In this document: piece by piece, positions 11,630 through 57,402 of the stretch
Position numbering within the stretch: position 1 is the stretch's first letter
How the letters are laid out: each line of letters begins with the position of its first letter
Assembly (NCBI GenBank): GCA_910575775.1
Contig: CAJTEY010000009.1
Coordinates: 1 to 64,000, forward strand
Length of the DNA stretch: 64,000 nucleotides
Source: Lachnospiraceae bacterium
GTDB lineage: Bacteria; Bacillota; Clostridia; Lachnospirales; Lachnospiraceae
Direction of reading: 5' to 3'
Program-made: the position numbers and the translations under genes
The notes under the pieces: model-generated
Seen by the model: the letters and a program-made list of their open reading frames with translations, nothing else
What the model was told of the DNA's origin: nothing
The model's database searches: none

Positions 11630-11725
11630 GGAGAATGCCGCATCTCAGGCATTCTCCTGCGTGAGATTTAGAACTTCTTGGCGTCCTGCCCAATGGCGGG
11701 ACGTCTTTAGAAGTTCTTCTCACGC
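11630..11725 (-). repeat. Two-hairpin structured element, copy 1 (behind the MoxR gene)
   Basis: On the minus strand a long bulged stem (outer GCGTGAGA / TCTCACGC; inner AGAACTTCT / AGAAGTTCT; tip GACGTCC / GGACG) is followed by a 10-bp hairpin GGAGAATGCC / GGCATTCTCC at 11630-11657. It starts 2 bases after the MoxR stop codon. No T-tract follows, so it is not an ordinary terminator. Confidence 0.8.
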
Positions 11726-11727
11726 GC

Positions 11728-13245
11728 CTATAGTTCCAGCTCATCAATCCGTGCGGTCAGCTCCGCCCCCCGTTCGGTGAGCATCAATTCCTCATTGTGT
11801 CTCTGGTAATCTTCACATCCGTAAAGACTGATAAATTTCGCGCAGTCCGCCTGTACCGTACACTCTGTCACTAGAATCAGCATCTCATTGCCGGAGCCGA
11901 AGGTGTCCTCCACAAACCGAAAGAGAAAATGCATCCGCTCCTTCACGCGCTCCGTATTTCGTTTATAGTCAGCCACTCTTGCGTCAAACTGTTCCTTCAC
12001 ACACGCAAATGCTGCCCCGCCGTCCGCCGACTCCGCAAGCCGCAGGTTCTTTTCGCAGGCGGAAAGGAAACCAGCTACCGCTCTGTTCAGACGCTTGTCG
12101 CGGACGGACAAAGCCCCCGCCTTCTGCAGAGACTCCATCGCCTTCTGCCTGCCCTGCGCCTGTTTTCCGGCAAGCTCTGAAAGCTCCTGTGCCGTCTCCC
12201 CAGCCTCCGCTTTCGCCTTCAAGGCTCTTAACGGAGGCATCAGCTCACTCAATATCTGGGAATCCTGCATATTTTCCCGGATATCCTGCTGCATGCTGTC
12301 AATCAGCATCCCCATCAGGGAAAGCCGTTCATCGAAATCGGCCTTCCTCGCCTTATCCTTCGCCTGTTCGCTGACCGTTCCGGTCAATATCTCTTCCGCC
12401 TTGTAGTCGTTCTGATACTTCCGATACAGATCATAATACGCCGTAAATTCCTTGACCACCCGGTCGTTTCGCAGATACTGTCCCACAAAGGACTCCTCCG
12501 CAGTGATCTGCTCCTCCTCATAGAGCTTCAGCATCTCAGAAAGATCCTCCCAGCCTCTGGCCGTAATGTAGCTTTTGCCCTTCACTGTGGTCTCCACCTG
12601 GTAAAAATCCTCTTTTTTCATATCCAGATAATTCAGAATAGCGGTGTGCACGCCGCGCTCCTTCGCATACTCCCGCCAGGCCGCATAGTCTGCCTCCACC
12701 TCCAGAATCTTGAGTCGGTCCATTGTCACGACATCAAACTCCCGCACCGATTTGTTGTACTCCGGCGGATTGCCTGCCGTCACAATCACCCAGCCCTCCG
12801 GCACCTGATGCCTGCCGAAAATCTTATACTGCAGAAATTGCAGCATGGAGGGCGCAAGCGTCTCCGACACACAGTTTATCTCATCCAAAAACAGGATGCC
12901 CTCCCGGATGCCGCTCTGGGCCATCACATCATAGACGGAGGCAATGATCTCGCTCATGGTATACTCCGACACATCGTATGCCTTTCCCTCATATTCTTTA
13001 TGCACGATAAAGGGAAGTCCCAGGGCCGACTGCCTCGTATGGTGGGTCATGGAATAGGACACCAGGGCAATCCCCAGTTCCTGTGCAATCTGCTCCATAA
13101 TCGCCGTCTTGCCGATGCCCGGCGCGCCCAGCAGAAAAATCGGCCGCTGTCTGACAACGGGAATCCGATACTCCCCCTCCTCATCCTTTTTCAGATAAAT
13201 CCTGACCGAATCCTTGATATAATTCTTCGCATCCTTAATATTCAT
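11728..13245 (-). CDS. MoxR-type AAA+ ATPase
   Basis: The 505-residue protein has a Walker A motif (LLGAPGIGKTAI, about residues 38-50) and Walker B (ILFLDEIN, about 118-125), and an AAA+ core to about residue 300. A long helical C-terminal part rich in Ala, Glu and Lys follows. MoxR ATPases act as chaperones that remodel partners of the VWA family. Here the partner gene (VWA with metallopeptidase-like domain) lies directly upstream and an LRR protein downstream. The start at 13245 (MNIKDAKNY) has AGGAGCG upstream; an ATG 7 codons earlier overlaps that ribosome site. Confidence 0.9.
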   Translation of the reverse strand: MNIKDAKNYIKDSVRIYLKKDEEGEYRIPVVRQRPIFLLGAPGIGKTAIMEQIAQELGIALVSYSMTHHTRQSALGLPFIVHKEYEGKAYDVSEYTMSEIIASVYDVMAQSGIREGILFLDEINCVSETLAPSMLQFLQYKIFGRHQVPEGWVIVTAGNPPEYNKSVREFDVVTMDRLKILEVEADYAAWREYAKERGVHTAILNYLDMKKEDFYQVETTVKGKSYITARGWEDLSEMLKLYEEEQITAEESFVGQYLRNDRVVKEFTAYYDLYRKYQNDYKAEEILTGTVSEQAKDKARKADFDERLSLMGMLIDSMQQDIRENMQDSQILSELMPPLRALKAKAEAGETAQELSELAGKQAQGRQKAMESLQKAGALSVRDKRLNRAVAGFLSACEKNLRLAESADGGAAFACVKEQFDARVADYKRNTERVKERMHFLFRFVEDTFGSGNEMLILVTECTVQADCAKFISLYGCEDYQRHNEELMLTERGAELTARIDELEL

Positions 13246-13279
13246 ATATCTGTACGCTCCTGTCATTCATCTCAAATAC

Positions 13280-13383
13280 GGAGAATGCCGTCTTTCAGGC
13301 ATTCTCCTGTGTGAGAAAAGTCTGCAAAGCAGACTTAGTACTTCCAAGCCAGCTCTGCTGAGCTTTAGAAGTCCTTCTCACAC
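13280..13383 (-). repeat. Two-hairpin structured element, copy 2 (overlapping the 3' end of the VWA gene)
   Basis: It has the same plan as the copy at 11630: outer stem GTGTGAGA / TCTCACAC, inner stem around GGACTTC / GAAGTAC, then the GGAGAATGCC / GGCATTCTCC hairpin at 13280-13307. An extra small hairpin (AGTCTGC / GCAGACT) sits inside the right arm. The element begins inside the coding sequence: the last VWA codons (Cys-Glu-Lys-Asp-Phe) and the TAA at 13365-13367 are part of its left arm. Confidence 0.8.
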
Positions 13384-14663
13384 GCCTCCAGAACAAGTCT
13401 GATCGCCCACGGCGGTACCTTCGGCGCGTTTTCATCGTCATGGAGAAACACAAAAGCCACATCGTAGTCCGGCATCTGCTCCGGGTAAATCCCGTACCCG
13501 TCGGTAAAGTAAAGCAGTCCCTTAAGCCGCGCAAGCTCTCCCTCCTCCCGCAGCTTTTCCACATAGGAGAACACCGGGCGAAAGTCCGTGGAACCGAAAC
13601 CCGTCAGTTTTCCCTGCTCCATAAACCGGTCAAACTCCTGCCTCTCCGTGATCTTGATGTCCTGCTGTACCTCGCTGTCGCACTGGATGATATGCACATT
13701 GATCTTGCAAAAAAAGCTCTCCGCCTCCTGCATGATATTGTAAGTTTTCTGCAAAAAAGCCTGTACTATTTCTCCCCGGCACGAAGCCGAAGTGTCCAGC
13801 GCAATCACAAAGTCCCGGATCTTATTGCTGTCCTTATACTCCAGAGGCTCCACCAGAGGCATATTGCCGTAGGTGTCCAGCCCGTAAGTGTAATAAATAT
13901 AGTCAAACTCATCGTCGTTGACCTGCACGGACTCGCCCATGACCATAAATTTTTTTAAGAAGCCTGCATAATCGTAACGTTCCCTTGTGGCCTCCTTCAA
14001 ATTCTGCTCTATGCTCTCGGCGTTATTCTTATCCCGGCTGAAGCTTTTCAAGTCCGCCTTGATGCGCTCGCTGACCTTGCGCCACTCCGCCTGGGATAGC
14101 TCCAGCTCTTCTCGCCTGTCCCAATAGATATGTTCGTCATAGTGACACAGCCTATGCCAGTCTTCCACTGCCTTTTCGGATGGTTCTTCCACCCGGAAAT
14201 GCCGGTAAATCTTCTCCGCCGTCAGACCGCCCGCCTGCTTCTTTAAAATTTCCAGACGATTCTTAAGCGTATCGTCCGTCTGCAGGCCGGTCAGATGCAG
14301 GTTGATGTCCAGAATCGTATTCTCCACCGCAATATCTGTGGCCAAATCCCAATACAGCCTGTTCATCTTATCTGTCTCATAACCGTGAAAGAAGACACAG
14401 TGCAGAAGCGTGTGCAGATAGAGCCTTGCAGCATAATTCGGCGATGCCTTATACTGTCTGAGCAGCCGCACCGGGTCATAGTACAACGCTGCACCGTCAA
14501 ACAGATGTGCACCCGTCTGCTGCCTGCACTCCAGCCTGAGCTTTGACAATGCCACATCCAGAAACCGCATATTGATCAGAAGGCCGTCATGGGCAAGGCG
14601 CAGAATCTCCTCCGCCAAACTCTCTATTTTCTGTTGTCTGTCAGAAGTTCCCTGTGTTCCCAC
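13365..14663 (-). CDS. VWA-domain protein with N-terminal metallopeptidase-like domain (DUF2201 type)
   Basis: The 432-residue protein starts at a GTG that has a perfect AGGAGG 9 bases upstream; an ATG-initiated extension of 20 codons lacks such a site. The N-terminal half resembles the putative metallopeptidase domain found with DUF2201, with His residues in HTLLHCVFFHG (about residues 84-94). The C-terminal VWA-like domain has an intact MIDAS motif DTSAS (Asp290, Ser292, Ser294) and a later TDG. It should bind a divalent metal ion and a protein partner. It is the first gene of the VWA, MoxR, LRR cassette. Its final residues are encoded by an intergenic repeat. Confidence 0.85.
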   Translation of the reverse strand: MGTQGTSDRQQKIESLAEEILRLAHDGLLINMRFLDVALSKLRLECRQQTGAHLFDGAALYYDPVRLLRQYKASPNYAARLYLHTLLHCVFFHGYETDKMNRLYWDLATDIAVENTILDINLHLTGLQTDDTLKNRLEILKKQAGGLTAEKIYRHFRVEEPSEKAVEDWHRLCHYDEHIYWDRREELELSQAEWRKVSERIKADLKSFSRDKNNAESIEQNLKEATRERYDYAGFLKKFMVMGESVQVNDDEFDYIYYTYGLDTYGNMPLVEPLEYKDSNKIRDFVIALDTSASCRGEIVQAFLQKTYNIMQEAESFFCKINVHIIQCDSEVQQDIKITERQEFDRFMEQGKLTGFGSTDFRPVFSYVEKLREEGELARLKGLLYFTDGYGIYPEQMPDYDVAFVFLHDDENAPKVPPWAIRLVLEACEKDF

Positions 14664-14750
14664 GTCAGATCGCCTCCTCTCTATCCGCACTGCCGCGCGC
14701 CGATAATATTTTATGTAAACCATATTCGCATAACTATTTTCTCTGATAGG

Positions 14751-15524
14751 CTATTTCACGTATATGTTATGTAAACTCACTTTCAGCAAATACAGAACCA
14801 GCAGATGCGCCGGATAAAAAAGGTAGAAAAACCATTTCGAAAAATGCCGTCCCTTTTTCGCCCGCTCTCCATTATAAAACACCAATACCACGACCGCTGC
14901 GGCAAGAATGCCGAGGCCGGAAAGCGCCGCGTGGGTGACGGCATATGCTGTCCAGTCCCCCTGCTCCCCGAACATATAGTTCTGTGTATTCAGCACCGCA
15001 AAAAGCAGATAAACCACACCAAAGCTCGCTGCCTGCTTTCTCCGATCCCCCATATTCCTGTAAAGCAGAAACGTCAGAAGCGGCGCGACAATCGGCCAGT
15101 CTCCATTCACCGTAGCCAAGATGAGACACATCACACATCCGGCCTGCAAGGTCCTGCTGCCCACGCGCTCCATCACAACAAGAATCAAATAACAGCAAAA
15201 CAGCGTGTAAATCATGTTAAGGCCGCGCTGCCCCAATGCCAGTTGGAAGGGAATCTGGGATAGAATCGCAAACAAAAACAATCGCAGCCCGTACTTCACC
15301 CTGGAACGCGTATAGTCATAGCCTTCCGCCAGGAAAAAGCACATCACCGGTGCCGTAAAGAATCCGATATCCTCCATAATCTCATAGAGCAGTGTCCCTC
15401 TCGTCAAAAACACATGCCCTGCGTGATTGAGCAGCATGGTAAACATGGCAATATATTTGATGACATCACGGTTCAGTAACCGCAGGCCACTTTCCTCTGT
15501 GTCCGTCTGTATCTGTCCGCCCAT
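14751..15524 (-). CDS. TraX-family membrane protein
   Basis: The 257-residue protein has about seven to eight hydrophobic helices and the TraX family opening (NRDVIKYIAMFTMLLNHAGH). In the F plasmid TraX acetylates pilin; chromosomal copies in Firmicutes are thought to be membrane acyltransferases of unknown substrate. The start at 15524 (MGGQIQ) has AGGGGAGT upstream, better than the ATG 22 codons earlier. No conjugation genes are near, so a pilin role is unlikely. Confidence 0.85.
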   Translation of the reverse strand: MGGQIQTDTEESGLRLLNRDVIKYIAMFTMLLNHAGHVFLTRGTLLYEIMEDIGFFTAPVMCFFLAEGYDYTRSRVKYGLRLFLFAILSQIPFQLALGQRGLNMIYTLFCCYLILVVMERVGSRTLQAGCVMCLILATVNGDWPIVAPLLTFLLYRNMGDRRKQAASFGVVYLLFAVLNTQNYMFGEQGDWTAYAVTHAALSGLGILAAAVVVLVFYNGERAKKGRHFSKWFFYLFYPAHLLVLYLLKVSLHNIYVK

Positions 15525-15734
15525 ATTCCACTCCCCTGTTTTGCAGACGCCGCTTTCTTCTGCCCCTGCCGTTTTTCCACAGCCAGGCATCCCAGCCTCT
15601 TTCTCTCATTACGTTGAGATAGGCGATCCACAGTCTCTGCAGTCGCCCATCTTTCGCTCATTCCTATCTCTTTTTATCTGTCCGCATCCGGCTCCTCTGC
15701 GTTCTGTATCTTAGCGGCCATCCGACGTCATTCG

Positions 15735-16367
15735 TCACTGTACAAACGGATTATATTCCTTCTCATGGCCGATGGTCGTCGACTCTCCATGTCCGGGATA
15801 AACCCTGGTGTCATCCGGCAGTACATACAGTTTGTCTTTGACCGACCTGGTCAGTGCACTCATACTTCCCGTCGCCAGATCCGTCCTGCCCACGGACTCC
15901 TGGAACAGCGTATCTCCCGCAAGGAGTATGCCCGCCTCCTCAAAATAATAACAGCAACTTCCCACGGTATGTCCCGGCGTGGCAATCAGCTTACAGGTCA
16001 TATTCGCTATCGTAATCTCTTCGTCCGCTTTCAAATATCTGTCGGGAATCACCGTATAGGGCCGTCCTACCTGGTCGGAAACGTTGGTGACTGCGTCCTC
16101 GCAGAGCGGCTTTTCCTCCTCATAGGCATAAATTGGCGCGCCTGACAGCTCCCGCAGTCTGTTACAGCCCCAGATGTGATCAAAATGGGCATGGGTCAGA
16201 AGAATGCCTTTGACCTGAAAGCCCTTTCCCTGCAATGTCTCATAGATATAATCGCCCTTATCTGCCGGATCAAAGAAAATCACATCCTTCGTGCCCTCTC
16301 TGTACACAAAATAGCAGTTTGTCTGGCAGATGCCGAGCATCAGCCTGCCTATTTTTAAATCTGACAT
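15735..16367 (-). CDS. MBL-fold metallo-hydrolase (glyoxalase II-like)
   Basis: The 210-residue protein has the metal-binding HAHFDH motif, a further His in TPGHTVGS, an Asp in LAGDTLF and a C-terminal YPGHGESTT. This matches the YcbL/GloB-like group of hydrolases; the substrate is not certain. The start at 16367 (MSDLKIGRLM) has GAGAGAGG upstream. A longer frame exists but would begin inside a structured repeat. It lies just downstream of relA, an arrangement common in Clostridia. Confidence 0.9.
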   Translation of the reverse strand: MSDLKIGRLMLGICQTNCYFVYREGTKDVIFFDPADKGDYIYETLQGKGFQVKGILLTHAHFDHIWGCNRLRELSGAPIYAYEEEKPLCEDAVTNVSDQVGRPYTVIPDRYLKADEEITIANMTCKLIATPGHTVGSCCYYFEEAGILLAGDTLFQESVGRTDLATGSMSALTRSVKDKLYVLPDDTRVYPGHGESTTIGHEKEYNPFVQ

Positions 16368-16397
16368 CTTCCCTGTTCCTCTCTCTTCCCCTATGCA

Positions 16398-16491
16398 GAG
16401 AATGCCGCATTTCAGGCATTCTCCCAAGCGAAACATAGAACTTCTTGGCGAGGCAGCCTCTGCTGCAGAGCTTTAGAAGTTCTTTTCGCTT
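16398..16491 (-). repeat. Two-hairpin structured element, copy 3 (behind relA)
   Basis: On the minus strand: outer stem AAGCGAAA / TTTCGCTT, inner stem AGAACTTCT / AGAAGTTCT, apical stem rich in CTGC, then hairpin GAGAATGCC / GGCATTCTC at 16398-16423. It starts 2 bases after the relA stop codon. The outer stem sequence differs from copies 1 and 2 in both arms. Confidence 0.8.
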
Positions 16492-16493
16492 TG

Positions 16494-18809
16494 TTAACCG
16501 CTTGTTCTCTCAATATCTATAATGCTCTCTATGGTTCTGATCTTGTCAATGATCCGCTGCAGTTCTTCCCTGCTGCCGACCTCAAAGCTGACCATGATGG
16601 TGGCCGTCCCCTGCTTGTTCACCCGCGTATTGAGTGCCTGAATGTCAATCTCCTTCTCGGTGAGCGCCCGGGACACATCCGCCAGAAGGCCGTTCCTGTT
16701 ATTGGCATAAATACTGATTTCCACCAGATACTTCTCGCCGGCCGCTGCCCCTTCCGCCTGCTGCCACTCCGCGTCGATCAGACGGTTTCTGTCTATTTCC
16801 GGCAGATTCATCAGATTTACACAGTCCGTCCGATGGATGGAAATGCCTCTTCCTCTTGTGACAAAACCTACGATCTCATCCCCCGGCACCGGGCTGCAGC
16901 ACTTGGAAAAGCGGACTGCTACATCGTGGATGCCTTTCACCACGATCGCGCTTGTACTCTTACCCGGTTTGGCGCGGTTGATCCGAACACTCTCCTCGAT
17001 CTCCGCCAGCACCTCGGCATCCGTCATCTCCCGCTTATGGTCTTTCTCGTAAAGCTCATGCATGCGGTTGATGATCTGCCCTTCCTTGAGCGCGCCGTGT
17101 CCCACCGCCGCCAGCACAGAGTCCCAGTTCTGGAAACCGTATTTCTTTATGACCGCCTCCTCATACTTAGGCGTCAGAACATCGGCAGCGTTGATCGCTT
17201 TCGCTTTACAGTAAGCGTGAATCAGCTCGCGTCCTTTGACAATATTGTCTTCTTTCAGTTCGTTTTTAAACCACTGGTTGATTTTATTTTTGGCCTGCGT
17301 GCTCTTCACCACGTTCAGCCAGTCACGGCTCGGACCTTTGGAGTTCTGGGAAGTCATAATCTCTACCCGGTCGCCGTTTTTGATCTCGTAGTCTATGGTC
17401 ACGAGCTTGCCGTTGACCCTCGCGCCAATCATCTTATTTCCCACCGCGCTGTGCACGCTGTAGGCAAAATCAATGGGCGTGGAACCCGCAGGCAGGCTCT
17501 TCACATCCCCTGTCGGGGTAAAGCAGAATACCGTGTCGGCAAAGAGGTTTAAGTCATCCTTTAACAGATTCATAAACTCCTTATTGTCCGTCATATCCTG
17601 CTGCCATTCCAGAATCTGGCGCAGCCATACGAGCTTCTCTTCCTCCTGCGTCTCCACCTTCCTGCCGTCGGAGGCCTCCTTATATTTCCAGTGGGCCGCA
17701 ATACCGTACTCCGCCGCCTTGTGCATCTCATAAGTGCGGATCTGTATCTCAAAGGGCTGTCCGCTTGCGCCGATCAGCGTGGTGTGGAGGGACTGATACA
17801 TGTTCGACTTCGGCATGGCAATATAATCCTTGAAACGGCCGGGAATCGGCTTATACATCTCATGGATCACACCCAGCGCGGCATAACAGTCCTTCACTGA
17901 ATCCACAATGATACGCACCGCAAACAGATCATAGATCTGGTCTATGGACTTGTTCTGGTTCTTCATCTTCTTGTATATGCTGAAAAAATGCTTGATGCGG
18001 CCGTCGATCTGGGATTTGATCCCCGCATTTTTGATGTGCACACTGACCTCGTCCACAATCGTTTGAATATAACGCTCCCGCTCGCTCTTTCTGACGGCAA
18101 TTTTATCTACCAGATCATAGTAAGCGTCGGGTTCCAGATATTTTAATGACAAATCGTCTAATTCCACCTTAATCTTTGAAATGCCCAGTCTCTGGGCAAT
18201 GGGAGAATAAATGTCAAGCGTCTCCCTCGCAATTTCCTGCTGTTTCTCCGGCCGCATATGCTGCAATGTACGCATATTGTGCAGACGATCCGCCAGCTTT
18301 ATCAGTATGACGCGGATATCTCTCGCCATAGCGAGGAACATTTTGCGCAGATTTTCCGCCTGCCGCTCCAGCTTCTCCGCGTCCTTGTCGTAATTTCCGT
18401 GTTCTCCGTGAAAATTCAGCTTATCCAGTTTCGTGACGCCGTCCACCAGATGGGCCACGTCCTCCCCGAACTGCTCACTGATCTCCTCGTCCGTCATAAT
18501 GGTGTCTTCCACCACATCGTGCAGAAGCCCCGCGACAATCGTCTCCTTATCCAGCTCCAGATCTGCGAGGATAATGGACACATACAGCGGATGGATGATA
18601 TAGGGCTCCCCTGATTTCCTGGCCTGGCCCTTGTGGGCATCCGATGCAACCCGGTAGGCCTTTTTGATCAGGCTGATATCCGTCGAAGGGTGGTATTTGC
18701 GCACACGGGCAATAAGCTCCTCGTAAAGCTGCCCGGGAGTCTGAAATTCTTCTATCGATTCTATTCTGCCGTCGTCAAAGACCAGCTCAGTCTTTTCTTC
18801 TGTCGCCAT
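16494..18809 (-). CDS. relA: Bifunctional (p)ppGpp synthetase/hydrolase (Rel)
   Basis: The 771-residue enzyme makes and breaks the stringent-response alarmone. Domains in order: HD hydrolase (AGLLHDVVEDT near residue 90), synthetase (SIYKKMKNQNKSI and MYQSLHTTLI), TGS (FTPTGDVKSLPAGSTPIDFA), a conserved-Cys region (FSKCCSPVPGDEIVGFVTRG) and a C-terminal ACT domain. Both catalytic halves look intact. It has its own promoter and is followed by the metallo-hydrolase gene. Confidence 0.97.
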   Translation of the reverse strand: MATEEKTELVFDDGRIESIEEFQTPGQLYEELIARVRKYHPSTDISLIKKAYRVASDAHKGQARKSGEPYIIHPLYVSIILADLELDKETIVAGLLHDVVEDTIMTDEEISEQFGEDVAHLVDGVTKLDKLNFHGEHGNYDKDAEKLERQAENLRKMFLAMARDIRVILIKLADRLHNMRTLQHMRPEKQQEIARETLDIYSPIAQRLGISKIKVELDDLSLKYLEPDAYYDLVDKIAVRKSERERYIQTIVDEVSVHIKNAGIKSQIDGRIKHFFSIYKKMKNQNKSIDQIYDLFAVRIIVDSVKDCYAALGVIHEMYKPIPGRFKDYIAMPKSNMYQSLHTTLIGASGQPFEIQIRTYEMHKAAEYGIAAHWKYKEASDGRKVETQEEEKLVWLRQILEWQQDMTDNKEFMNLLKDDLNLFADTVFCFTPTGDVKSLPAGSTPIDFAYSVHSAVGNKMIGARVNGKLVTIDYEIKNGDRVEIMTSQNSKGPSRDWLNVVKSTQAKNKINQWFKNELKEDNIVKGRELIHAYCKAKAINAADVLTPKYEEAVIKKYGFQNWDSVLAAVGHGALKEGQIINRMHELYEKDHKREMTDAEVLAEIEESVRINRAKPGKSTSAIVVKGIHDVAVRFSKCCSPVPGDEIVGFVTRGRGISIHRTDCVNLMNLPEIDRNRLIDAEWQQAEGAAAGEKYLVEISIYANNRNGLLADVSRALTEKEIDIQALNTRVNKQGTATIMVSFEVGSREELQRIIDKIRTIESIIDIERTSG

Positions 18810-18855
18810 ACATTCACCAAACCCTTATCGGATTACATAATATTACATATTAGCA

Positions 18856-18884
18856 ATTTTACGCCATTCTCGTATTATTTGCAA
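18856..18884 (-). promoter_or_regulatory. Promoter of relA
   Basis: TTGCAA and TAAAAT are 17 bases apart on the minus strand, about 45 bases before the start codon. Confidence 0.7.
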
Positions 18885-18936
18885 GAAAAATCAAAATAAT
18901 TTAGCAGCGCATCCCATAATATTTGAGCTCTGCACT

Positions 18937-19001
18937 AAAAAAAGCGCCCTTTTTGGCGATTGCTCACAGAGCAGGATCGTCAGGGGCGCCTGGTAAGACA
19001 G
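18937..19001 (-). ncRNA. Candidate small RNA of about 65 nt with its own promoter and terminator
   Basis: On the minus strand TTGGCA (19030-19035) and TATCAT (19008-19013) are 16 bases apart. They are followed by a compact folded unit: GCGCCC / GGGCGC outer stem, CGAT / ATCG and GCTC / GAGC inner stems, then seven T residues at 18943-18937. No coding frame fits. It lies between the divergent relA and XRE-like genes, so it does not terminate a known gene. Within 18810-19120 I see only this, the relA promoter and a weak -10 (TATACT) near 19085 for the plus-strand gene. Confidence 0.45.
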
Positions 19002-19123
19002 CTTTTTATGATAGCAAATCACACAAGCTTGCCAATTCCACCCAAATTCGCCTTACAGAGGATGTCATTGCGCGCCCCAAAATGCTATACTTGCCATAGA
19101 AAAACAACTGGAGGTACATGAAC

Positions 19124-19477
19124 ATGGATCAGACAGCAACAGGCAAATTTATTACGAAAAAGCGCAAAGAACTGAACACGACGCTGGCCGAGCTTATGAA
19201 CGGGGAAGCGGATGATAAAAGCATACACACCTATGACAATGAGCAGATCATGGAGATGATGAAAGAAATGCAGGAGCTGAAAAATGCTAAAATCACGTTT
19301 ACCGGCTATATTCTGATTATCGTTGGTATTGTTATGTTAACCTTATCCCAACTGTTTGGCGGGACAGAATTTCAGGATTTTCTCTCGGGCTTCATGCTGG
19401 GATTATCTTTTTGTCAGATGTTGGTTGGTATTTTTGTTGTCAGCCGGCAGATGGCCGGTAAAACCAGAAACAAATAG
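19124..19477 (+). CDS. Small membrane protein derived from an XRE-type regulator lacking its DNA-binding core
   Basis: The 117-residue protein opens with MDQTATGKFITKKRKELNTT, which resembles helix 1 of an XRE regulator. It then jumps to LAELMNGEADDKS, which resembles the segment that normally follows the helix-turn-helix. The recognition helices seem to have been deleted in frame. Two hydrophobic helices follow (about residues 58-79 and 85-107). GGAGGT lies 8 bases before the chosen ATG. It probably no longer binds DNA. The function is unknown. Confidence 0.7.
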   Translation: MDQTATGKFITKKRKELNTTLAELMNGEADDKSIHTYDNEQIMEMMKEMQELKNAKITFTGYILIIVGIVMLTLSQLFGGTEFQDFLSGFMLGLSFCQMLVGIFVVSRQMAGKTRNK

Positions 19478-19494
19478 GAAATACCATCTGCTCG

Positions 19495-19536
19495 CAAAAA
19501 ATGCGCCTTCTCGAGCAAGCTCGGAAAGCGCATTTT
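19495..19536. terminator. Bidirectional terminator between the XRE-like gene and groEL
   Basis: A stem of AATGCGC / GCGCATT with a GAGC / GCTC inner stem has A-rich and T-rich flanks on both sides. On the minus strand the T-tract reads TTTTTTGCG. Confidence 0.8.
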
Positions 19537-19539
19537 CTC

Positions 19540-19685
19540 CTCACATCCGCTGCGCCGCAGCTTATTACGTTATACTCGCAAAGCCGCGCTTACGCGCTTT
19601 CTGTCCGTCTCCGACAGACCTTTGCTCGTTTACGGCGCGGGAAAAACAAATGTCGCTTCGCGCCGCTTGTTTTTCCTTCTGCGCC
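19540..19685 (-). repeat. Array of stable hairpins downstream of groEL
   Basis: Directly after the groEL stop the minus strand carries a hairpin GGAAAAACAA / TTGTTTTTCC inside a GGCGC / GCGCC clamp (about 19633-19685). A three-way element follows at about 19573-19632, where GAGCAAAGG closes with GCTTTGC around CTGTCGGAGACGGACAG and GCGCGTAAGCGCG. The whole stretch is non-coding and could protect the groEL mRNA 3' end. Confidence 0.65.
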
Positions 19686-21347
<1,662 letters not shown>

Positions 21348-21363
21348 TCAATTTATTCCATGC

Positions 21364-21457
21364 GGAGAATGCTTCTTTTCAGGCATTCTCCTGCGTGAGA
21401 TTTAGTACTTCTTGGCGTTCCGTCCTATGGCGGAACGTCTTTAGAAGTGCTTCTCAC
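21364..21457 (-). repeat. Two-hairpin structured element, copy 4 (between groES and groEL)
   Basis: Outer stem GTGAGA / TCTCAC, inner stem GCACTTCT / AGAAGTAC, apical stem GACGTTCCG / CGGAACG, then hairpin GGAGAATGC / GCATTCTCC at 21364-21391. The groES stop codon TGA (21454-21456) lies inside the left arm of the outer stem. It could split groES and groEL mRNA stability or translation. Confidence 0.8.
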
Positions 21458-21741
21458 TCTATGACCGCCAGAATATCATTCTGTCTCACGATGATATATT
21501 CCTCATCCTCGCCGAGCTTCACCTCCGTGCCCGAATATTTGGAGTAGATGACCTGATCGCCGACCTTCACTTCCATCTTCACTTCCTTGCCGTCCACAAC
21601 GCCGCCCGGTCCTACCGCGATCACTTCAGCCTGCTGGGGTTTCTCTTTGCTCTGTCCCGGCAGAACAATTCCTGATTTCGTAGTCTCCTCCGCTTCCAAC
21701 TGCTTTAATACAACTCTGTCGCCAAGTGGTGTTAACTTCAT
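21454..21741 (-). CDS. groES: Co-chaperonin GroES
   Basis: The 95-residue lid of the GroEL cage has the typical [19 protein letters not shown] start and the mobile loop ([18 protein letters not shown]). AAGGAGG lies 9 bases upstream of the chosen ATG; the upstream extension crosses the regulatory CIRCE region and is not coding. The stop codon is supplied by the structured repeat that follows. Confidence 0.97.
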
Positions 21742-21796
21742 AATAACTGCCTCCTTCTTAATTATGTGATACATTTCATGCTTATCCTGTAGTCTG

Positions 21797-21823
21797 TTAG
21801 CACTCACCTTATATGAGTGCTAA
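21797..21823. promoter_or_regulatory. CIRCE operator (HrcA site) of groESL
   Basis: The perfect consensus TTAGCACTC-N9-GAGTGCTAA is present between the promoter and groES. HrcA represses the operon here at normal temperature. Confidence 0.97.
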
Positions 21824-21834
21824 CTCTGGAACAT

Positions 21835-21863
21835 ATATTATCTTCATATGCGGGTGTTTGCAA
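21835..21863 (-). promoter_or_regulatory. Promoter of groESL
   Basis: TTGCAA and TAATAT are 17 bases apart on the minus strand, 11 bases upstream of CIRCE. No gene is seen between here and 22100. Confidence 0.75.
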
Positions 21864-22100
21864 ATGGTTTCACATGCACATATATGCGTTTATCTCTCAT
21901 TTTTTCATCTTTTCTATTATTTTCTCTCATTATCTCGTTTTTATCCAGAAAAAGGGATTTTATACTTATTTTATATTTTCTGTATCCATCCGAAGAAACG
22001 CCCGGATTTCTTCCTTTACAAAGGCATAGTCTCCGTCCCATTTTCTGACTCTGCCTTCTGACATTTTCCAGCATAAGCAGATCGGCAGTTCTATACACGC

Positions 22101-31161: not shown

Positions 31162-31247
31162 GCAGGTTTGTCTTTTTCAAACCTGCCGATCAAAACTTAG
31201 AATTTGTTAGACGTTGTCTTTTGACGTCTTATAAATTCTTTTTGATC
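31162..31247 (-). repeat. Two-hairpin structured element, copy 5 (divergent, behind gap)
   Basis: On the minus strand the outer stem is GATCAAAA / TTTTGATC, the inner stem AGAATTT / AAATTCT, the apical stem GACGT / ACGTC, and the trailing hairpin GCAGGTTTG / CAAACCTGC at 31162-31186. The order and spacing match the other copies, but almost every stem base differs in both arms. It overlaps the last base of the gap stop codon. Confidence 0.7.
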
Positions 31248-32248
31248 TATGCCAGCTCAGAGAAGTACTTGATGGTACGAACCATCTGAGAGGTGTAGCT
31301 GTTCTCATTGTCATACCAGGAAACAACCTGAACCAGATTGTCCTCGCCTACCATAGTCTGGGTAGCATCGAAGATCGAACCATAGGTGCTGCCTACGATA
31401 TCGGAAGAAACGATCTCATCCTCATTGTAAGCAAAAGACTCTGTAGCTGCTGCCTTCATTGCTGCGTTGATCTCGTCCTTGGTTACGGACTTCTCTACGG
31501 TTGCAACCAGAATGGTTGTGGAACCTGTAGGGGTAGGAACACGCTGTGCGGAACCGATCAGCTTGCCGTTCAGCTCAGGGATAACAAGGCCAATAGCCTT
31601 AGCTGCACCAGTGCTGTTGGGAACGATGTTGATCGCGCCTGCGCGGGATCTTCTCAGGTCACCCTTTCTCTGAGGACCGTCAAGGATCATCTGATCGCCT
31701 GTGTAAGCGTGGATGGTGCTCATAATACCAGACTTGATGCCTGCCAGATCGTTGAGTGCCTTAGCCATAGGAGCCAGGCAGTTCGTTGTGCAGGATGCTG
31801 CGGAAATGATGGTATCGTCAGCCTTCAGTGTCTCGTGGTTTACGTTGTATACGATGGTAGGAAGATCGTTTCCTGCGGGAGCAGAGATAACAACCTTTCT
31901 TGCGCCTGCATTGATATGGGCCTGAGCCTTCTCTTTGCTGGTGTAGAAGCCGGAGCACTCCAGAACAACGTCAACCTTGAGCTCACCCCAAGGGCAGTTG
32001 TTTGCATCGGGCTCTTTGTAGATCTTTAATGTCTTACCATCAACCGTGATGGAATCCTCGCCTGCGGTTACGGTATCTGCCAGAGCATATTTACCCTGGG
32101 AAGAATCGTACTTTAACAGATGTGCCAGCATCTTAGGGCTTGTCAGATCGTTGATTGCTACAACCTCATAACCTTCTGCTCCGAACATCTGTCTGAATGC
32201 CAGACGACCGATACGGCCAAAACCATTAATTGCTACTCTTACTGCCAT
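31247..32248 (-). CDS. gap: Glyceraldehyde-3-phosphate dehydrogenase
   Basis: The 333-residue NAD-dependent type I enzyme has [17 protein letters not shown] at the start, the catalytic Cys in [15 protein letters not shown], and the WYDNENSY motif near the end. The structured element that follows its stop and the operator in its promoter suggest separate control from pgk and tpiA. Confidence 0.98.
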
Positions 32249-49777: not shown

Positions 49778-49789
49778 CTTCCAATTTAA

Positions 49790-50046: not shown

Positions 50047-50086
50047 AAAAAAGCCCCTGAAACTTCGGCTCTGTTCCAGGGACTTT
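50047..50086 (-). terminator. Terminator of the nucleoside operon
   Basis: On the minus strand GTCCCTGGAAC pairs with GTTTCAGGGGC and is followed by TTTTTTCTG. It lies 25 bases after the stop codon of the last gene. Confidence 0.85.
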
Positions 50087-50110
50087 TCTTCTTTTTTGGT
50101 TTTTCTCTTT

Positions 50111-50719: not shown

Positions 50720-50724
50720 TGCCG

Positions 50725-51366
50725 TCATACTCCTTTCGCAAGCCTGCTTGTCCCAAGCCTGTCGGCGCCGAGTCTGATAAACTCCTCCGCATCCTTAAAG
50801 TCTGCAATGCCTCCGGCCGCCTTGATCTTCACATGCTCTCCCACATTTTCTTTCATAAGGGCGATGTCCGCAAAGGTGGCTCCGCCCGTGGAAAAGCCGG
50901 TTGAAGTTTTGATGTACTCAGCCCCTGATTTCGTGACAATCTCACACATCTTTTTCTTTTCCTCTTCTGTCAGCAGGCAGGTCTCGATGATGACCTTCAG
51001 GATTTTGCCGTCACATGCCTCATGCACCTTTCGGATCTCCTCCTCCACCTCGTCATAGAGGCCGTCCTTCAAGAGACCGATGTTGATAACCATGTCAATC
51101 TCCGCCGCGCCGTTAGCCACAGCATCCTTCGTCTCGAACACCTTCACCGCCGTGGTGCTGTAGCCGTTTGGGAAACCGATCACGGTACAGATGGGCAGTT
51201 TTCCCTGCACATAGTCCGCCGCCCGCTTCACATAGGAAGCCGGGATACAGGCGGACGCCGTCTCATACTGCATACCCGCATCAAGAATTGCCTTAATCTC
51301 CTCCCAGGTGGCCGTCTGTGCAAGCAGCGTGTGATCTACCTTTTTTAAAATCTCTTTCTTGTCCAT
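50725..51366 (-). CDS. deoC: Deoxyribose-phosphate aldolase
   Basis: The 213-residue aldolase splits deoxyribose 5-phosphate into glyceraldehyde 3-phosphate and acetaldehyde. Motifs: [44 protein letters not shown], the catalytic Lys in [17 protein letters not shown] and the Schiff-base Lys in [17 protein letters not shown]. It follows deoB, the preceding step in the pathway. Confidence 0.96.
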
Positions 51367-51409
51367 AGCAATACCTCTTTCTACCTATTATAATTTGATG
51401 ATACCGCGC

Positions 51410-52600: not shown

Positions 52601-52626
52601 TTTTTACCTCTTTTCTTCTTACAAAC

Positions 52627-53547
52627 TTATCTTCTACCCTTCACATAGGGCACGCCGTCCGCTTTAGGAGCCACGGACTTGCCGATGAAGAGAATCAGAA
52701 TCACGATGGTCAGCACATAAGGAAGCATCGCCAGAATTTCTGTCGGAACAGCAACTGCCCCGCCGCCAAGCACCACCGTCAGCGCCTGGGAGAATCCGAA
52801 GATCAGACATGCCCTGTACGCGCCCAGGGGCTTCCATTTACCGAAGATCACGGCAGCCAGCGCGATAAATCCCTGTCCTGCGACGGATGTCTGTGTAAAC
52901 TGCGCCACAATACCGAGTGTCACTGTGGCTCCGCCGATTCCTGCCAGAATGCCTGAAAGGATCACACATATATAACGGGTTTTGTATACATTGATGCCGA
53001 GCGTATCCGCCGCCGCAGGATTCTCACCTACTGCAAGAATGCGCATGCCCCATTTGGTGCGGTAGAGCACAAACCACATCGCCACAGCGAACAGCAATGC
53101 CACAATCACCATGATATCCACATTCAGGTTCGCCCATATGCCTTCCGCACCGCTTCCGAAGATCTTCGGGAGCTTATTTGCCACCGGGTAGGACATGGTC
53201 GCGCCGTCAAAGGCGAGCCGGCAGAAGAATACCGCAAGAGCCGGGCCAAGCAGGTTGATCGCCACACCGCTTATGGTCTGATCCGCCTGACAGGTGATCG
53301 CCGCCACCGCGTGAAGCAGAGCCAGAATACCGCCGGCAAGAGCCGCACACAGCACACCGATCCAGGGACTGCCGCTGTAATATCCCGCCGCTGCCCCGGC
53401 AAAAGCGCCGAAGGTCATCATGCCCTCTATGCCGATGTTAACAACGCCGGACCGCTCTGACAGCACGCCGCCCAGTGCACCGAATACCATCGGTGTGGAG
53501 TACAGCAGCGTGACACCGAGTAACAACGTAATCGTATTCATCATCAT
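52627..53547 (-). CDS. nupQ: Nucleoside ABC transporter permease, second subunit
   Basis: The 306-residue protein has about eight to ten membrane helices and the family segment SERSGVVNIGIEGMMTFGAF. It is the NupQ/YufQ-like permease. Its start codon overlaps the stop codon of the other permease (ATGA), so the two are translated together. It should form the channel for purine or pyrimidine nucleosides. Confidence 0.92.
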   Translation of the reverse strand: MMMNTITLLLGVTLLYSTPMVFGALGGVLSERSGVVNIGIEGMMTFGAFAGAAAGYYSGSPWIGVLCAALAGGILALLHAVAAITCQADQTISGVAINLLGPALAVFFCRLAFDGATMSYPVANKLPKIFGSGAEGIWANLNVDIMVIVALLFAVAMWFVLYRTKWGMRILAVGENPAAADTLGINVYKTRYICVILSGILAGIGGATVTLGIVAQFTQTSVAGQGFIALAAVIFGKWKPLGAYRACLIFGFSQALTVVLGGGAVAVPTEILAMLPYVLTIVILILFIGKSVAPKADGVPYVKGRR

Positions 53548-54659
53548 TTTACACCTCTTTTCCCCATTTTATCAACCAGAACCGGCACCATATCCTTGAG
53601 CGCGATCAAAAATACAATCGTACCGATCAGAATACTGATAATCTCCGACGGAGCGCCTACCACATACTGGATGGACTGTCCGCCATACAAAAGGCCGCCG
53701 AACAGAAGTCCCGCAAAGATACATCCAATGGGGGAACCGCCCGCTATGAACGCCACCGACAGGCCATTCAGACCGTTTGACTCAAAGGCGGAAAGCTGGG
53801 AAATCCCGTGAGGATTGTTGCCCGCTATGGCGATCGATGCAGCGATTCCAGACAGGGCGCCCGCAATCAGCATGGTCTGCACCATATTTTTTCCCACATT
53901 GATGCCTGCAAACTCCGCCGCGTCCCTGTTGCTTCCAACCGCGCGCAGCTCATACCCCTTGGTCGTCTTGTAGAGCAGGAAAGAAACCGCAAAGGTGAGG
54001 GCAATGGCAATGAAGATACCGGCATTGGCATCCGTCCGCAGGATATCGCCGATCACGGGGTGCTCCTGCACAAACTCTGCCGCCGCTTCGGTGGTCTTCC
54101 AGTTCGTGAAAAAGGAGATAAATCCAGACTCATTGATCGCGTAGGTGCCGTCCGAGTCCGGCTTGTGGAACCGCTCTATGTTGCACACGAAATTGGAGAA
54201 ATAGAGCGCCATCCAGTTCAGCATGATACCCACAATCACTTCGTTGATGTTATATTTCGCCTTCAGCCACCCGGCAATTCCTCCGTAGAGCGCGCCCGCC
54301 GCTGCGCCCACAAGCAGCACGAGAGGCACTTCGATGATGGCAGGAAAGTCACAGACGATGCCCACCACATTGGCCGCCACCGCGCCCACAATGAACTGTC
54401 CCTCCGCACCGATATTGAACAGGCCCATCTTGTATGCAAACGCCACGCTGACACCTGTCAGAATAATGGGTGTGCTCTTGATAATCACGTTGGAAATATA
54501 CTTCGGTCTTCCGAAAATGCCGCCCAGCAGCGCGCCGAATGCCTCAAAAGGATTGTAACCCGAAGCCGCCAGAATTACCGTCGCCACCAGAAATCCGCAG
54601 AATATGGCAATCAGAGTGGCGGTAATCGGTTTCTTTAAGATTTTAACTGTTTTTTCCAT
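53544..54659 (-). CDS. nupP: Nucleoside ABC transporter permease, first subunit
   Basis: The 371-residue protein has nine or so membrane helices and the motif MGLFNIGAEGQFIVGAVAAN of this BPD-like family. Its start overlaps the 3' end of the ATPase gene by 17 bases. It works with NupQ, NupO and the lipoprotein. Confidence 0.92.
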   Translation of the reverse strand: MEKTVKILKKPITATLIAIFCGFLVATVILAASGYNPFEAFGALLGGIFGRPKYISNVIIKSTPIILTGVSVAFAYKMGLFNIGAEGQFIVGAVAANVVGIVCDFPAIIEVPLVLLVGAAAGALYGGIAGWLKAKYNINEVIVGIMLNWMALYFSNFVCNIERFHKPDSDGTYAINESGFISFFTNWKTTEAAAEFVQEHPVIGDILRTDANAGIFIAIALTFAVSFLLYKTTKGYELRAVGSNRDAAEFAGINVGKNMVQTMLIAGALSGIAASIAIAGNNPHGISQLSAFESNGLNGLSVAFIAGGSPIGCIFAGLLFGGLLYGGQSIQYVVGAPSEIISILIGTIVFLIALKDMVPVLVDKMGKRGVK

Positions 54660-56184
54660 CTAATGTTCCTCCTGCCATAATTAATCCAATTGTCTTTTCG
54701 TCCACCTCACCCTGTTTAAAGGTACAGCGGATGGCGCCGTCGTAAATGACCCCGATGGTGTCCGAAACGTTCATCACCTCGTCCAGCTCCAGCGAGATGA
54801 GAAGCACTGCCTTCCCTTTGTCCCGCTCCCTGACAAGCATCTTGTGAACGTACTCGATGGCTCCCACATCCAGTCCTCTGGTAGGCTGCACAGCGATCAA
54901 AAGGTCGGGATTGTTGGCGATTTCCCTGCCGATAATCACCTTCTGCTGGTTGCCGCCGGAAAGTCCTCTGATCGCCAGCTCCTCGCAGGAGTCCGGGCGC
55001 ACATCGTAGTCCTTCAAAAGACCGGAGGCAAATTTGCGGATTTCCTTTCTGTTTAAAATGCTCTTCTGTGAAAAAGGCTCTTTCATGTATGTGTCAAGCA
55101 CCGCATTGTCCTCCACCGAAAAATCCAGAACAAGTCCCCGTTTCTGCCGGTCCTCGTGGATCGTTGCAATGCCCGCATCCATAGTCTCCCGCGTGGTTCT
55201 GTTTTCAATATTGTTTCCATTGATGCGGATGGTTCCGCTCTCCACCTTAATCAGGTTTGTGATCGCCTCCACCAGCTCCTTCTGCCCGTTGCCGTCAATT
55301 CCTGCAATGCCGAAGATTTCTCCCCGCCTCACCTGCATGGACAGATTCTTGAGCACATACACGCCGCAGTTATCTTTCGCAGTCAGCCCGCTGACCTCAA
55401 ACACCACGTCTCCGGGCTTCGCCTCCTCCTTATCCACCACCAGCTTCACCCGGTGTCCCACCATCATGTCCGCAAGCTCCTCCTGGGACACCTTAGCCAC
55501 CTCCACGGTGTCAATGTACTTTCCTCTACGAATGATGCTGCAGTAGTCGGCGGAAGCCTTGATCTCCTTCAGCTTATGGGTAATGATGATGATGGTCTTC
55601 CCGTCGTCCACCAGCCTGTGCATGATATCGATCAGGTCACCGATCTCCTGCGGCGTCAGCACTGCCGTCGGCTCATCCAGAATCAGTATATCCACGCCCC
55701 GGTACAGCGCCTTTAAGATTTCCACTCTCTGTTGCATACCGACGGAAATATCTGAGATGTACGCGTCCGGGTCCACCTCGAGACCGTATTTTTTCACGAT
55801 TCCCATGACCTCTTCCCTTGCTTTCTTAAGGTCCACCACGCCGCCCGCTTTTGTCGTCTCATGTCCGAGAATGATGTTCTGCGTCACCGTGAAATTGTCC
55901 ACAAGCATAAAGTGCTGGTGCACCATGCCGATCCCATGGGCAATCGCCACGTTGGGATTTTTCATTTCCACCTTTTCCCCGTACAGGTAAATGTCGCCCC
56001 CGTTTGCCTGATACAGCCCGTATAAAATGTTCATCAGTGTGGTCTTTCCTGCCCCGTTTTCTCCCAGAACCGCATGGATGGAACCTTTTTTCACATCGAG
56101 CTGCACCTGGTCCAACGCCGTATAGGAGCCGAATTTTATCGTGATATCATGCATTTGAACCGCATAGTCTTTTCTTACTTCCAT
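54643..56184 (-). CDS. nupO: Nucleoside ABC transporter ATPase with two ABC domains
   Basis: The 513-residue protein contains two ABC domains. The first has a full Walker A (GENGAGKTTLM), an ABC signature-like ISVGMQQRVEILKAL and Walker B (ILILDEPTAVLTPQE). The second has a divergent Walker A (GIDGNGQKEL) and LSGGNQQKVIIGREI, the usual asymmetry of this sugar/nucleoside family. AGGAGAG lies before the chosen ATG (MEVRKDYAV), which removes an apparent overlap with the lipoprotein gene. Confidence 0.93.
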   Translation of the reverse strand: MEVRKDYAVQMHDITIKFGSYTALDQVQLDVKKGSIHAVLGENGAGKTTLMNILYGLYQANGGDIYLYGEKVEMKNPNVAIAHGIGMVHQHFMLVDNFTVTQNIILGHETTKAGGVVDLKKAREEVMGIVKKYGLEVDPDAYISDISVGMQQRVEILKALYRGVDILILDEPTAVLTPQEIGDLIDIMHRLVDDGKTIIIITHKLKEIKASADYCSIIRRGKYIDTVEVAKVSQEELADMMVGHRVKLVVDKEEAKPGDVVFEVSGLTAKDNCGVYVLKNLSMQVRRGEIFGIAGIDGNGQKELVEAITNLIKVESGTIRINGNNIENRTTRETMDAGIATIHEDRQKRGLVLDFSVEDNAVLDTYMKEPFSQKSILNRKEIRKFASGLLKDYDVRPDSCEELAIRGLSGGNQQKVIIGREIANNPDLLIAVQPTRGLDVGAIEYVHKMLVRERDKGKAVLLISLELDEVMNVSDTIGVIYDGAIRCTFKQGEVDEKTIGLIMAGGTLDGKNS

Positions 56185-56197
56185 ATGTCCTTCTCTC

Positions 56198-57226
56198 CTA
56201 TTTCCCCAACCCTTCCACAAAGGCTTGGTAAGTTTCCTCCGATACCGGGGGTGTCAGTTCCTCGTCAATAATCATCTGCTGCAGCTCCATCGCCTTTTCA
56301 TAAACCGCAGGATCCATGATCTTGTTCTCTTCAGGAATGCCCACACACCCTTCCTTCAGCCCATAACTGTAGGTGTTGCCACCGATTTCCTCACCGTTCA
56401 TCGCCATGGTGGACACAAGCTCCACCGCAATGTTCGTGTTCTTCATGCCGGAAGTCAGTACGTTGTCCGGCGCCAGATGGGACTGATCCGTATCGACGCC
56501 GATGACAAGTTTTCCGTTCTCCTTGGCGGATTCGATCACGCCGTAACCCGCGCCGCCCGCAGAGTGAAAGATAATGTCACAGCCGTTAGAGTACATCTTG
56601 TTGGAGATCGCCTTCGCTTTCGCCGCATCAGAGTAACTCTCCGTAAACTGCGACTGCACCTCAATCTCACGCCCCTGTACATATCCGGCGTATGCCACGC
56701 CGCCCATGTAGCCGTACTGGAACTGGTCGTTTAAGAAGCTCTTCATCGGCCCCACATAGCCCACCTTATCCGTCTTCGTGGTGAGTCCAGCGATATAACC
56801 TAACAGGAAGGATGACTCCTGCGCACGGAATACCACGCCCGTACAGTTTTGAGGGCTCTCATCAAACGCAAAATCCACGATGGCAAAATTGATATCCGGA
56901 TTCATCTTCGCGATGGTCAGCATGGGATCTGCCAGCGAATAGCCAAGAGCCCACACAAGGTCACTGTAAGTGTCCGTCGCCCTGTCAATGTTTGTCAGAT
57001 AATCCGATGCCTGTTTGGATTCCAGCACCCTCACATCCGCACCCGTATGTTCCCCAAAACTCTGCAGTCCCTCCCAAGAGATCTGATTAAAGGACTGGTC
57101 GTTGATGCCTCCTGTGCCCGCTACCATAGACACCCGGTATACCGAATCATCTTTTTCAGCCATACCGCAGCCCGCTAATGTACATGCCATCAGAACTGCC
57201 GGTATCACCTTTTTCCATTTTTTCAT
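56198..57226 (-). CDS. nupN: BMP-family nucleoside-binding lipoprotein
   Basis: The 342-residue protein has a lipoprotein signal (VLMACTLAGCG; lipid on the Cys) and the BMP family pattern (SMVAGTGGINDQSFNQISWE, DVRVLESKQASDYLTNIDRA, DIIFHSAGGAGYGVIESAKE). Family members bind purine or other nucleosides outside the cell. It is followed by its ATPase and two permeases. Confidence 0.94.
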   Translation of the reverse strand: MKKWKKVIPAVLMACTLAGCGMAEKDDSVYRVSMVAGTGGINDQSFNQISWEGLQSFGEHTGADVRVLESKQASDYLTNIDRATDTYSDLVWALGYSLADPMLTIAKMNPDINFAIVDFAFDESPQNCTGVVFRAQESSFLLGYIAGLTTKTDKVGYVGPMKSFLNDQFQYGYMGGVAYAGYVQGREIEVQSQFTESYSDAAKAKAISNKMYSNGCDIIFHSAGGAGYGVIESAKENGKLVIGVDTDQSHLAPDNVLTSGMKNTNIAVELVSTMAMNGEEIGGNTYSYGLKEGCVGIPEENKIMDPAVYEKAMELQQMIIDEELTPPVSEETYQAFVEGLGK

Positions 57227-57289
57227 TTGCCCACCTTTCTTTCTACACTAATCGTAATGTCACAGCTTCGCTGTGACTCAAATCAGTAC

Positions 57290-57402
57290 GGAGAATGCCG
57301 TATTTTAGGCATTCTCCTGCGTGAAACGGAGTTGCAACGCAACTCCTAGTACTTCTTAACGAAGCAGCTTCTGCTGCTGAGTTCTGGAAGTACTTTTCAC
57401 GC
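57290..57402 (-). repeat. Two-hairpin structured element, copy 6 (overlapping the deoD stop)
   Basis: Outer stem GCGTGAAA / TTTCACGC, inner stem AGTACTTCC / GAAGTACT, an extra hairpin GGAGTTGC / GCAACTCC, then hairpin GGAGAATGCC / GGCATTCTCC at 57290-57317. The deoD stop codon TGA (57397-57399) lies inside the left arm. A separate small hairpin CACAGC / GCTGTG follows at 57261-57275. Confidence 0.8.

Follow-up and report, generated by a model that had tools for sequence, protein, structure and literature searches.

The repetitive extragenic palindromic sequences (REPs) are dispersed palindromes found near the 3' ends of upstream open reading frames (ORFs), and those of the GTAG type often provide the TAG stop codon of the gene (PMC3733652). 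REP sub-families have alternative, complementary residues in their stems (PMC3733652), and REPs close to stop codons act on translation (PMC12306157). Of the 58 overlaps of BOX repeats with coding sequences in Streptococcus pneumoniae, 36 are at the extreme 3' end, where the repeat encodes the stop codon, and these overlaps are reported without strong evidence of protein truncation (PMC3049150). Here we analyze a family of structured repeats that came to light in a 64,000-nucleotide (nt) stretch of a Lachnospiraceae bacterium genome (assembly GCA_910575775.1, contig CAJTEY010000009.1, positions 1 to 64,000; hereafter the window), in which a preliminary description made from the sequence alone had noticed six two-hairpin copies at gene stop codons. 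We find that these copies are members of a real family of palindromic repeats in Lachnospiraceae whose anchor points are gene boundaries. The reading we favor, with a probability of roughly 55%, is that the element is a non-autonomous, REP/BOX-like interspersed palindromic DNA repeat that is mobile and inserts at gene boundaries.

The unit consists of a foot, YAR-N (often TAG), preceded by A in 54% and by G in 18% of cases, followed by hairpin 1 (8 bp, a 3-4-nt bulge or an extra hairpin, 9 bp and a variable tip), hairpin 2 (~10 bp), the tail GCAYNGATTTGA and, in complete units, hairpin 3. Units are typically 97-115 nt and range from about 97 to 145 nt with two or three hairpins. A tail like GCAYNGATTTGA (≤3 mismatches) lies 3' of hairpin 2 in 41 of 99 copies, and an additional hairpin of at least 6 bp is found 3' of hairpin 2 in 10 of 99, compared with 2.1 in shuffles. 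The two-hairpin plan initially proposed gives the basic order, with the correction that some copies extend to a third hairpin and that, in a relative, complete units can recur in head-to-tail series every 145 nt. A doubled-foot subfamily, with for example TAGAGTGAA and then AAGCGCGAGAAG, was observed at loci L009, L019, L021, L023, L035, L057, L063 and L083, and looks like one element starting right after the TGA of another.

A covariance model built from 12 copies gave 103 dispersed matches at E ≤ 0.01 in the 4.88-Mb genome that contains the window (G000); 99 of them were analyzed and the four weakest were left out. Among 41 genomes searched at E ≤ 0.001, 23 of the 25 from the same genus matched, with 1 to 96 matches per genome, and none of the 16 from other families did. 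In a family-wide sample, 19 of 299 genomes matched at E ≤ 1e-4; two of these (G000 and G068) are from the genus itself, and the other Lachnospiraceae genera sampled account for 17 of 297 (scoring was limited to 13 candidates per genome, which makes the copy numbers in this sample lower bounds). An exact-pattern scan of titled genomes returned 87 stretches, and the 80 listed are named Lachnospiraceae, Blautia, Roseburia, Clostridium or "bacterium". Spread on viruses was also considered, and a single exact pattern had no match in viral contigs. No Rfam family matches the elements: only tmRNA and RNase P reach the gathering score, and two sR39 matches fall far under it. A known Rfam RNA was accordingly rejected as the identity of the element. 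The preliminary description knew of no family with this plan, and we did not find the architecture described in the open-access share of the literature that was searched; its placement is less novel, since stop codons are also occupied, and even supplied, by REP and BOX repeats.

Most copies are anchored at a stop codon. Taking as genes the longest frames of at least 100 codons (80 for other genera), which is a simple rule and not a gene finder, we found a gene stop on the same strand within −9 to +37 nt of where the element starts in 80 of the 99 copies, as against 0-5 of 99 in controls whose start was moved by 100-400 nt. Antisense gene ends are not enriched (11 of 99 versus 2-15 in the shifted controls). 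The stop offsets peak at 0 (22 copies), 3 (21), 8 (18, or 16 with one ORF per copy) and 21 (8), and offsets of −9 to +8 include 68 of the 99 copies. Stop anchoring extends to 74 of 88 copies from other genomes, mostly of the genus (105 matches less four opposite-strand duplicates and 13 at contig edges), and to 29 of 42 copies from other genera, which come from 12 of the 17 positive genomes and include one genome, G134, with only 1 of 7. The association with stop codons noted for six copies is therefore non-random elsewhere too, with the qualification that for 19 of the 99 no long ORF on the same strand ends in the interval −9 to +37; by eye, four of these 19 are at the stops of shorter ORFs or are part of a nested copy.

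The foot carries TAG or TAA at positions 1-3 and TGA at positions 6-8 in many copies, and therefore the element can supply the stop codon itself. In 45 of 46 offset-0 copies the stop is TAA or TAG, compared with a TGA share of 68 among 184 other stops in the own-genome DNA examined, and genes ending in TGA appear among the copies at offset 8, in which the stop and the element's own GTGA are the same bases. This partition suggests that foot and target may be matched over a few bases. On the downstream side, a same-strand ORF starts within 150 nt in 88 of the 99 copies, and most copies lie between co-directional genes, including those between the ribosomal-protein genes for S5 and L30 (locus L050, 1501-1596) and for S14 and S8 (L091, 1501-1584; both in G000, by Pfam). 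Among the few apparent exceptions in orientation, L060 (G000:C13 49056-49170) seems to be antisense to its neighbors; an ORF on the minus strand has its stop 3 nt away from the 3' end of this copy.

Because some of the copies away from stops begin at −10-like boxes or at rnpB, the anchor is a gene or transcript boundary, mostly a stop codon, and not translation termination as such. In the pooled sets, 31 of 187 copies are away from the stop of any long ORF. In ten of the 31, the first base is the final T of a hexamer that matches TATAAT in at least five of six positions, perfectly in four cases, compared with 14 of 156 stop-anchored copies, none perfect. Two points temper this count: the foot itself often has this T, and short ORFs precede two of the ten. 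At locus L016 (G000:C9, ~102.7-103.4 kb), two elements in the same orientation bracket rnpB, one of them starting at the rnpB 3' end, and an element is present at this 3' end in three genomes (G000, G003 and G043). No tRNA gene was found as an alternative anchor in the 32 loci scanned.

The base-pairing itself was examined for signs of the level at which it is maintained. The covariation is strong: all 33 pairs of the model show double changes, 96.2% of cells are paired and no shuffle equals this. Covariation alone would have classed the family as a structured RNA, and a purely RNA-level function was our first expectation. A transcript under selection tolerates G-U pairs but not A-C, whereas a DNA palindrome treats both alike. 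Wobble is scarce in the element (G-U, 2.4% of cells). In stem 1, the ratio of G-U to A-C is 34:24 in 97 own-genome copies and 41:23 in 103 others, and it becomes 22:23 and 23:23 without the top pair, which by itself holds 12 and 18 G-U cells. The ratios are 21:34 and 20:22 in hairpin 2 and 32:18 and 18:16 in the inner tip, compared with 302:9 in 30 RNase P RNA sequences from the genus, paired according to an RNAalifold structure. These counts omit matches with fewer than 70% of stem-1 cells paired (10 of 107 in the own-genome set and 2 of 105 in the other), and the own-genome set had some opposite-strand matches of the same elements, some of which may remain. With RNA folding rules, 76 of the 99 copies are more stable as the antisense strand, whereas rnpB folds better in the sense strand in 30 of 30; under DNA rules the strands are nearly equal, the coding strand being better in 43 and the other in 54 of the 99. 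The near parity of G-U and A-C, set against 302:9 in RNase P, and the strand-stability results provide evidence that the pairing arises and is maintained mainly as DNA, with the copies then probably decaying without strong RNA constraint. For the same reasons, we demoted the purely RNA-level function.

Comparison of orthologous loci revealed filled and empty sites. An element follows groES at 6 of 30 loci of the genus (G000, G002, G003, G046, G074 and G076, the G076 copy being degenerate) and rel at 5 of 30 (G000, G002, G003, G073 and G074). The protein end is mostly unchanged between filled and empty sites, and the C-terminal residues of the other groES proteins are the same or similar. By eye, many rel loci are empty, some with just 5-25 nt between the stop and the next gene, and in the von Willebrand factor A (VWA) gene of G000 the element stands in place of the last acidic codons. 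In G045 and G016, only a fragment of the 3' end of hairpin 2 is left after rel (by eye). Together with L301 near 18069 (the VWA gene), the rel loci L272 and L280 give deleted or recombined remnants at stops in G045, G016 and G074 (by eye), which suggest that elements may decay by internal deletion. A different short repeat, resembling GTAAATCGCTTCGCGATTAACTT, was seen by eye in the element-free groES-groEL spacers L253, L254, L260, L262 and L264, and is perhaps another palindromic repeat family at the same groES stop.

At filled sites the parts of the element have diverged unequally. Between G000 and G003, the upstream flanks are 96%, 87% and 86% identical at rel, groES and MoxR, respectively, and hairpin 2 is 96%, 96% and 89% identical, compared with 71%, 53% and 74% for stem 1; the divergent stem 1 is re-paired save for a mismatch here and there, whether or not the extra hairpin is present. 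At groES, G000 and G002 share 96% identity in stem 1, 88% in the flank and 51% in the following 60 nt. Because stem 1 differs while the flanks and hairpin 2 stay alike, the turnover of stem 1 would be better explained by copying from repeat to repeat, or by a new insertion at the same base, than by point mutation alone. Amplification in place is seen in arrays. On contig G003:C18 (L217, 2127-2475), two full 145-nt units and a partial third are arranged head to tail, and in another genus (G104:C25, L362, 1216-1514) a 91-nt unit is repeated 3.3 times, also head to tail; units in these arrays are 98% alike, a likeness that suggests recent local amplification.

Taken together, the roughly 100 dispersed copies, the filled and empty sites and the head-to-tail arrays favor the first of the two ideas in the preliminary description, that of mobile hairpins targeting gene ends, and the mobilizing enzyme was not found. 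In the model that we propose, copies would spread and be renewed as hairpin DNA, either through a single-strand transposase acting in trans or through copying between repeats. Joining would be guided by a short T/A-rich match between foot and target (TATAAY, TAR or GTGA), and insertions elsewhere would be purged by selection. In the mRNA, the hairpin would lie directly against the ribosome at termination and may, like REPs, modulate the upstream gene; such an effect would be a by-product of the landing place, and the RNA hairpin a by-product or a secondary use.

Several results weigh against this interpretation. The model and the alignments fitted to it favor canonical pairs, and retrieval of the copies by a stem-1 pattern biases the covariation analysis towards the structure. 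When the top pair of stem 1 is counted, G-U cells outnumber A-C cells (75 versus 47). Some orthologous pairs show no replacement of stem 1 (groES in G000 and G046, 93%; MoxR in G003 and G076, 85%), and the most similar pair of copies in G000 is 90.8% identical, so no recent insertion is seen in that genome. The empty sites yielded neither a target-site duplication nor an exact boundary because their spacers are too diverged. As to the enzyme, Y1 transposase genes are present in 15 of the 41 genomes, in a search that detected the E. coli control, but no Y1 match was obtained in the element-rich genomes G002, G006 and G016 (28-34 copies each; completeness 94%, 95% and 82%, respectively). No element was present in the 12 Y1 loci examined (8 of them among the 31 Y1 matches of the genus), and no transposase was recognized, with names assigned by eye, in the 14 largest clusters of 528 neighboring ORFs. 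A RAYT/IS200 mobilizer was thus rejected, since Y1 genes do not track copy number and the Y1 loci examined are without the element. Finally, an RNA function would likewise give sense orientation and stop anchoring.

This last point leads to the alternative that survives best, which we regard as unlikely but worth serious attention: the element may be a functional RNA, selected in the transcript, that follows the stop codon, where it would stall or insulate ribosomes at termination, block 3' exonucleases or set gene ratios within operons. Besides orientation and anchoring, it would account for the location between co-directional genes, the conservation of the architecture in other genera, and the covariation, including a slight surplus of G-U in the top pair of stem 1. 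It also has precedents, as stop-proximal REPs stall ribosomes (PMC12306157) and the stable RNA structures downstream of stop codons known as ribosome termination structures (RTS) limit re-initiation (PMC7518266). On the other hand, G-U and A-C cells are about equal, unlike in RNase P RNA, and in hairpin 2 A-C equals or exceeds G-U. The better folding of the antisense strand, the patchy occurrence at orthologous stop codons, and the copies that start at a −10-like box or at rnpB without a stop codon are similarly difficult to reconcile with it, and RTS are reported to be depleted inside operons, where most of our copies lie (PMC7518266). The second idea of the preliminary description, an RNA element for 3'-end stability or translation termination, is therefore weakened. 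A bolder version of the mobile-repeat interpretation is speculative and, in our judgement, improbable as a whole: the insertion of the hairpin DNA might itself be aimed at translation stops and promoter −10 boxes, the foot reading a TATAAY, TAR or GTGA target, possibly via DNA or RNA opened by transcription or by the terminating ribosome, and it might be moved by an undescribed kind of enzyme, with hairpin 1 renewed by copying in place.

Quite unlikely is a role as a structured site of RNA processing or decay, such as an RNase III substrate, at which units transcribed together would be parted at gene ends, promoters and rnpB. The long, nearly perfect stems and the copies at −10-like boxes and at the rnpB 3' end would suit such a role, and ERIC and Correia elements have been reported as putative cleavage sites (PMC3049150), but the symmetry between strands, in both the G-U and A-C counts and the folding, argues against it. 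Intrinsic terminators or attenuators, suggested by stable hairpins 3' of stop codons, are very improbable and were rejected: as the preliminary description had noted, inspection finds no T-tract 3' of the short hairpin in the six window copies, a terminator scan of positions 11000-22000 lists none of the four copies there, and copies occupy the groES-groEL, S5-L30 and S14-S8 spacers with same-strand ORFs mostly close downstream.

Within the window, all six copies were found at the coordinates first noticed, on the minus strand and on the same strand as their genes, with the refinement that the model match starts ~2 nt further 5'. Each is far more stable when folded than its shuffles, with z from −6.2 to −9.3 and none of 200 shuffles equaling it. 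On the coding strand, the order in every copy is stop codon, long bulged stem, 1-2 bases and short hairpin, and the upstream stop ends 0-21 nt past the start of the model match. Hairpin 1 has 8 bp, a 3-nt bulge on the 3' side, 7-9 bp and a variable tip, and the copies at 13280 and 57290 have an additional hairpin of ~18-19 nt instead of the bulge. The short hairpin GGAGAATGCC-N8-GGCATTCTCC (≤3 mismatches) occurs five times in the window against 0.01 expected; the shared long stem and short hairpin described earlier are thus borne out with the exceptions of these extra hairpins and of the copy at 31162, whose short hairpin differs from the other five. The adjoining genes are ordinary and, by Pfam, include MoxR-like AAA, VWA-like, rel, groES/groEL, GAPDH and phosphorylase genes.

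Copy 1 (11630..11727, 97-nt class, model E 2.6e-23) lies between the MoxR-like AAA and LRR genes, with hairpin 2 at 11630-11657 and the stop TAG at 11728-11730 (offset +0; sequence and Pfam). In copy 2 (13280..13385, E 2.0e-12), which has the extra hairpin at the bulge, the VWA-like upstream gene terminates within the element at TAA 13365-13367 (offset +21). Copy 3 (16397..16493, 97-nt class, E 6.1e-19) is immediately 3' of rel (RelA/SpoT-like), whose stop is TAA 16494-16496 (offset +0), and a metallo-beta-lactamase-fold gene comes next. Copy 4 (21364..21461, E 4.8e-22) occupies the groES-groEL spacer, the groES stop TGA 21454-21456 falling within its 5' arm (offset +8). The divergent, A+T-rich copy 5 (31162..31249, E 4.0e-10) is 3' of the GAPDH gene and has the stop TAG 31247-31249 as its first triplet (offset +3); by eye, a terminator-like hairpin lies further downstream. 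Copy 6 (57290..57404, 115-nt class, E 3.0e-16) is 3' of a phosphorylase-superfamily gene with the stop TGA 57397-57399 within the 5' arm (offset +8). It is followed, 3' of the tail GTACTGATTTGAG, by hairpin 3 (TCACAGCGAAGCTGTGA, 57260..57276, minus strand), which closely resembles the hairpin closing the 145-nt tandem units of G003. Elsewhere, the window carries a tmRNA gene (6411-6760, minus strand; tag AEDNLAYAA).

These results add a structured-repeat family, absent from Rfam and from the literature found, to common gut bacteria. Copies stand even between essential genes, and with those between groES and groEL and between ribosomal-protein genes, the family could shift the expression of core genes. 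The comparison of G-U with A-C is a simple way to separate DNA-level from RNA-level upkeep of hairpins and is relevant to REP-like repeats generally.

Among known systems, RTS resemble the element in being stable structures directly downstream of stop codons, but they are a general folding tendency and not a repeat family, and they are reported to be depleted after mid-operon genes (PMC7518266). The bcr1-type and other stem-loop repeats of Bacillus and Clostridium are multi-copy structured repeats of Firmicutes (PMC2267715), compared here by description; the term "stop codon" is absent from that paper. BOX is, like the element, a modular interspersed repeat with strong structure that supplies stop codons, and its mobilization by an insertion sequence with similar ends has been proposed, but it has a boxA-boxB-boxC architecture. 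The REPs and other RAYT-associated palindromes (GTAG and CGTC superfamilies) are alike in that the element is a high-copy extragenic palindrome, with 103 matches and 80 of 99 copies at gene ends. The phyla listed for REPs in PMC3733652 omit Firmicutes, whereas RepRanger, with a looser definition, lists Bacillota candidates. A REP is 20-40 bp long with an unpaired terminal GTAG (or GTGG), whereas the element is ~97-145 nt long with two or three hairpins and a YAR foot; a Y1 gene may be flanked by two inverted REP copies (PMC2817692), whereas no RAYT was found with the element. The element is also mostly in one orientation relative to the gene, with apparent exceptions such as L060, and the arrays examined run head to tail. 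For these reasons of size, foot and Y1-flanking arrangement, we do not file the element as a REP. It is anchored more strongly than the quoted estimates indicate for E. coli REPs, of which ~11% in one estimate and about half in another lie within 15 nt of a stop (PMC12306157), compared with 68 of our 99 copies at −9 to +8, although the measures differ. Judged by these comparisons, and set apart from BOX by description and not by sequence, the element appears to work like a REP or BOX repeat but fits neither class.

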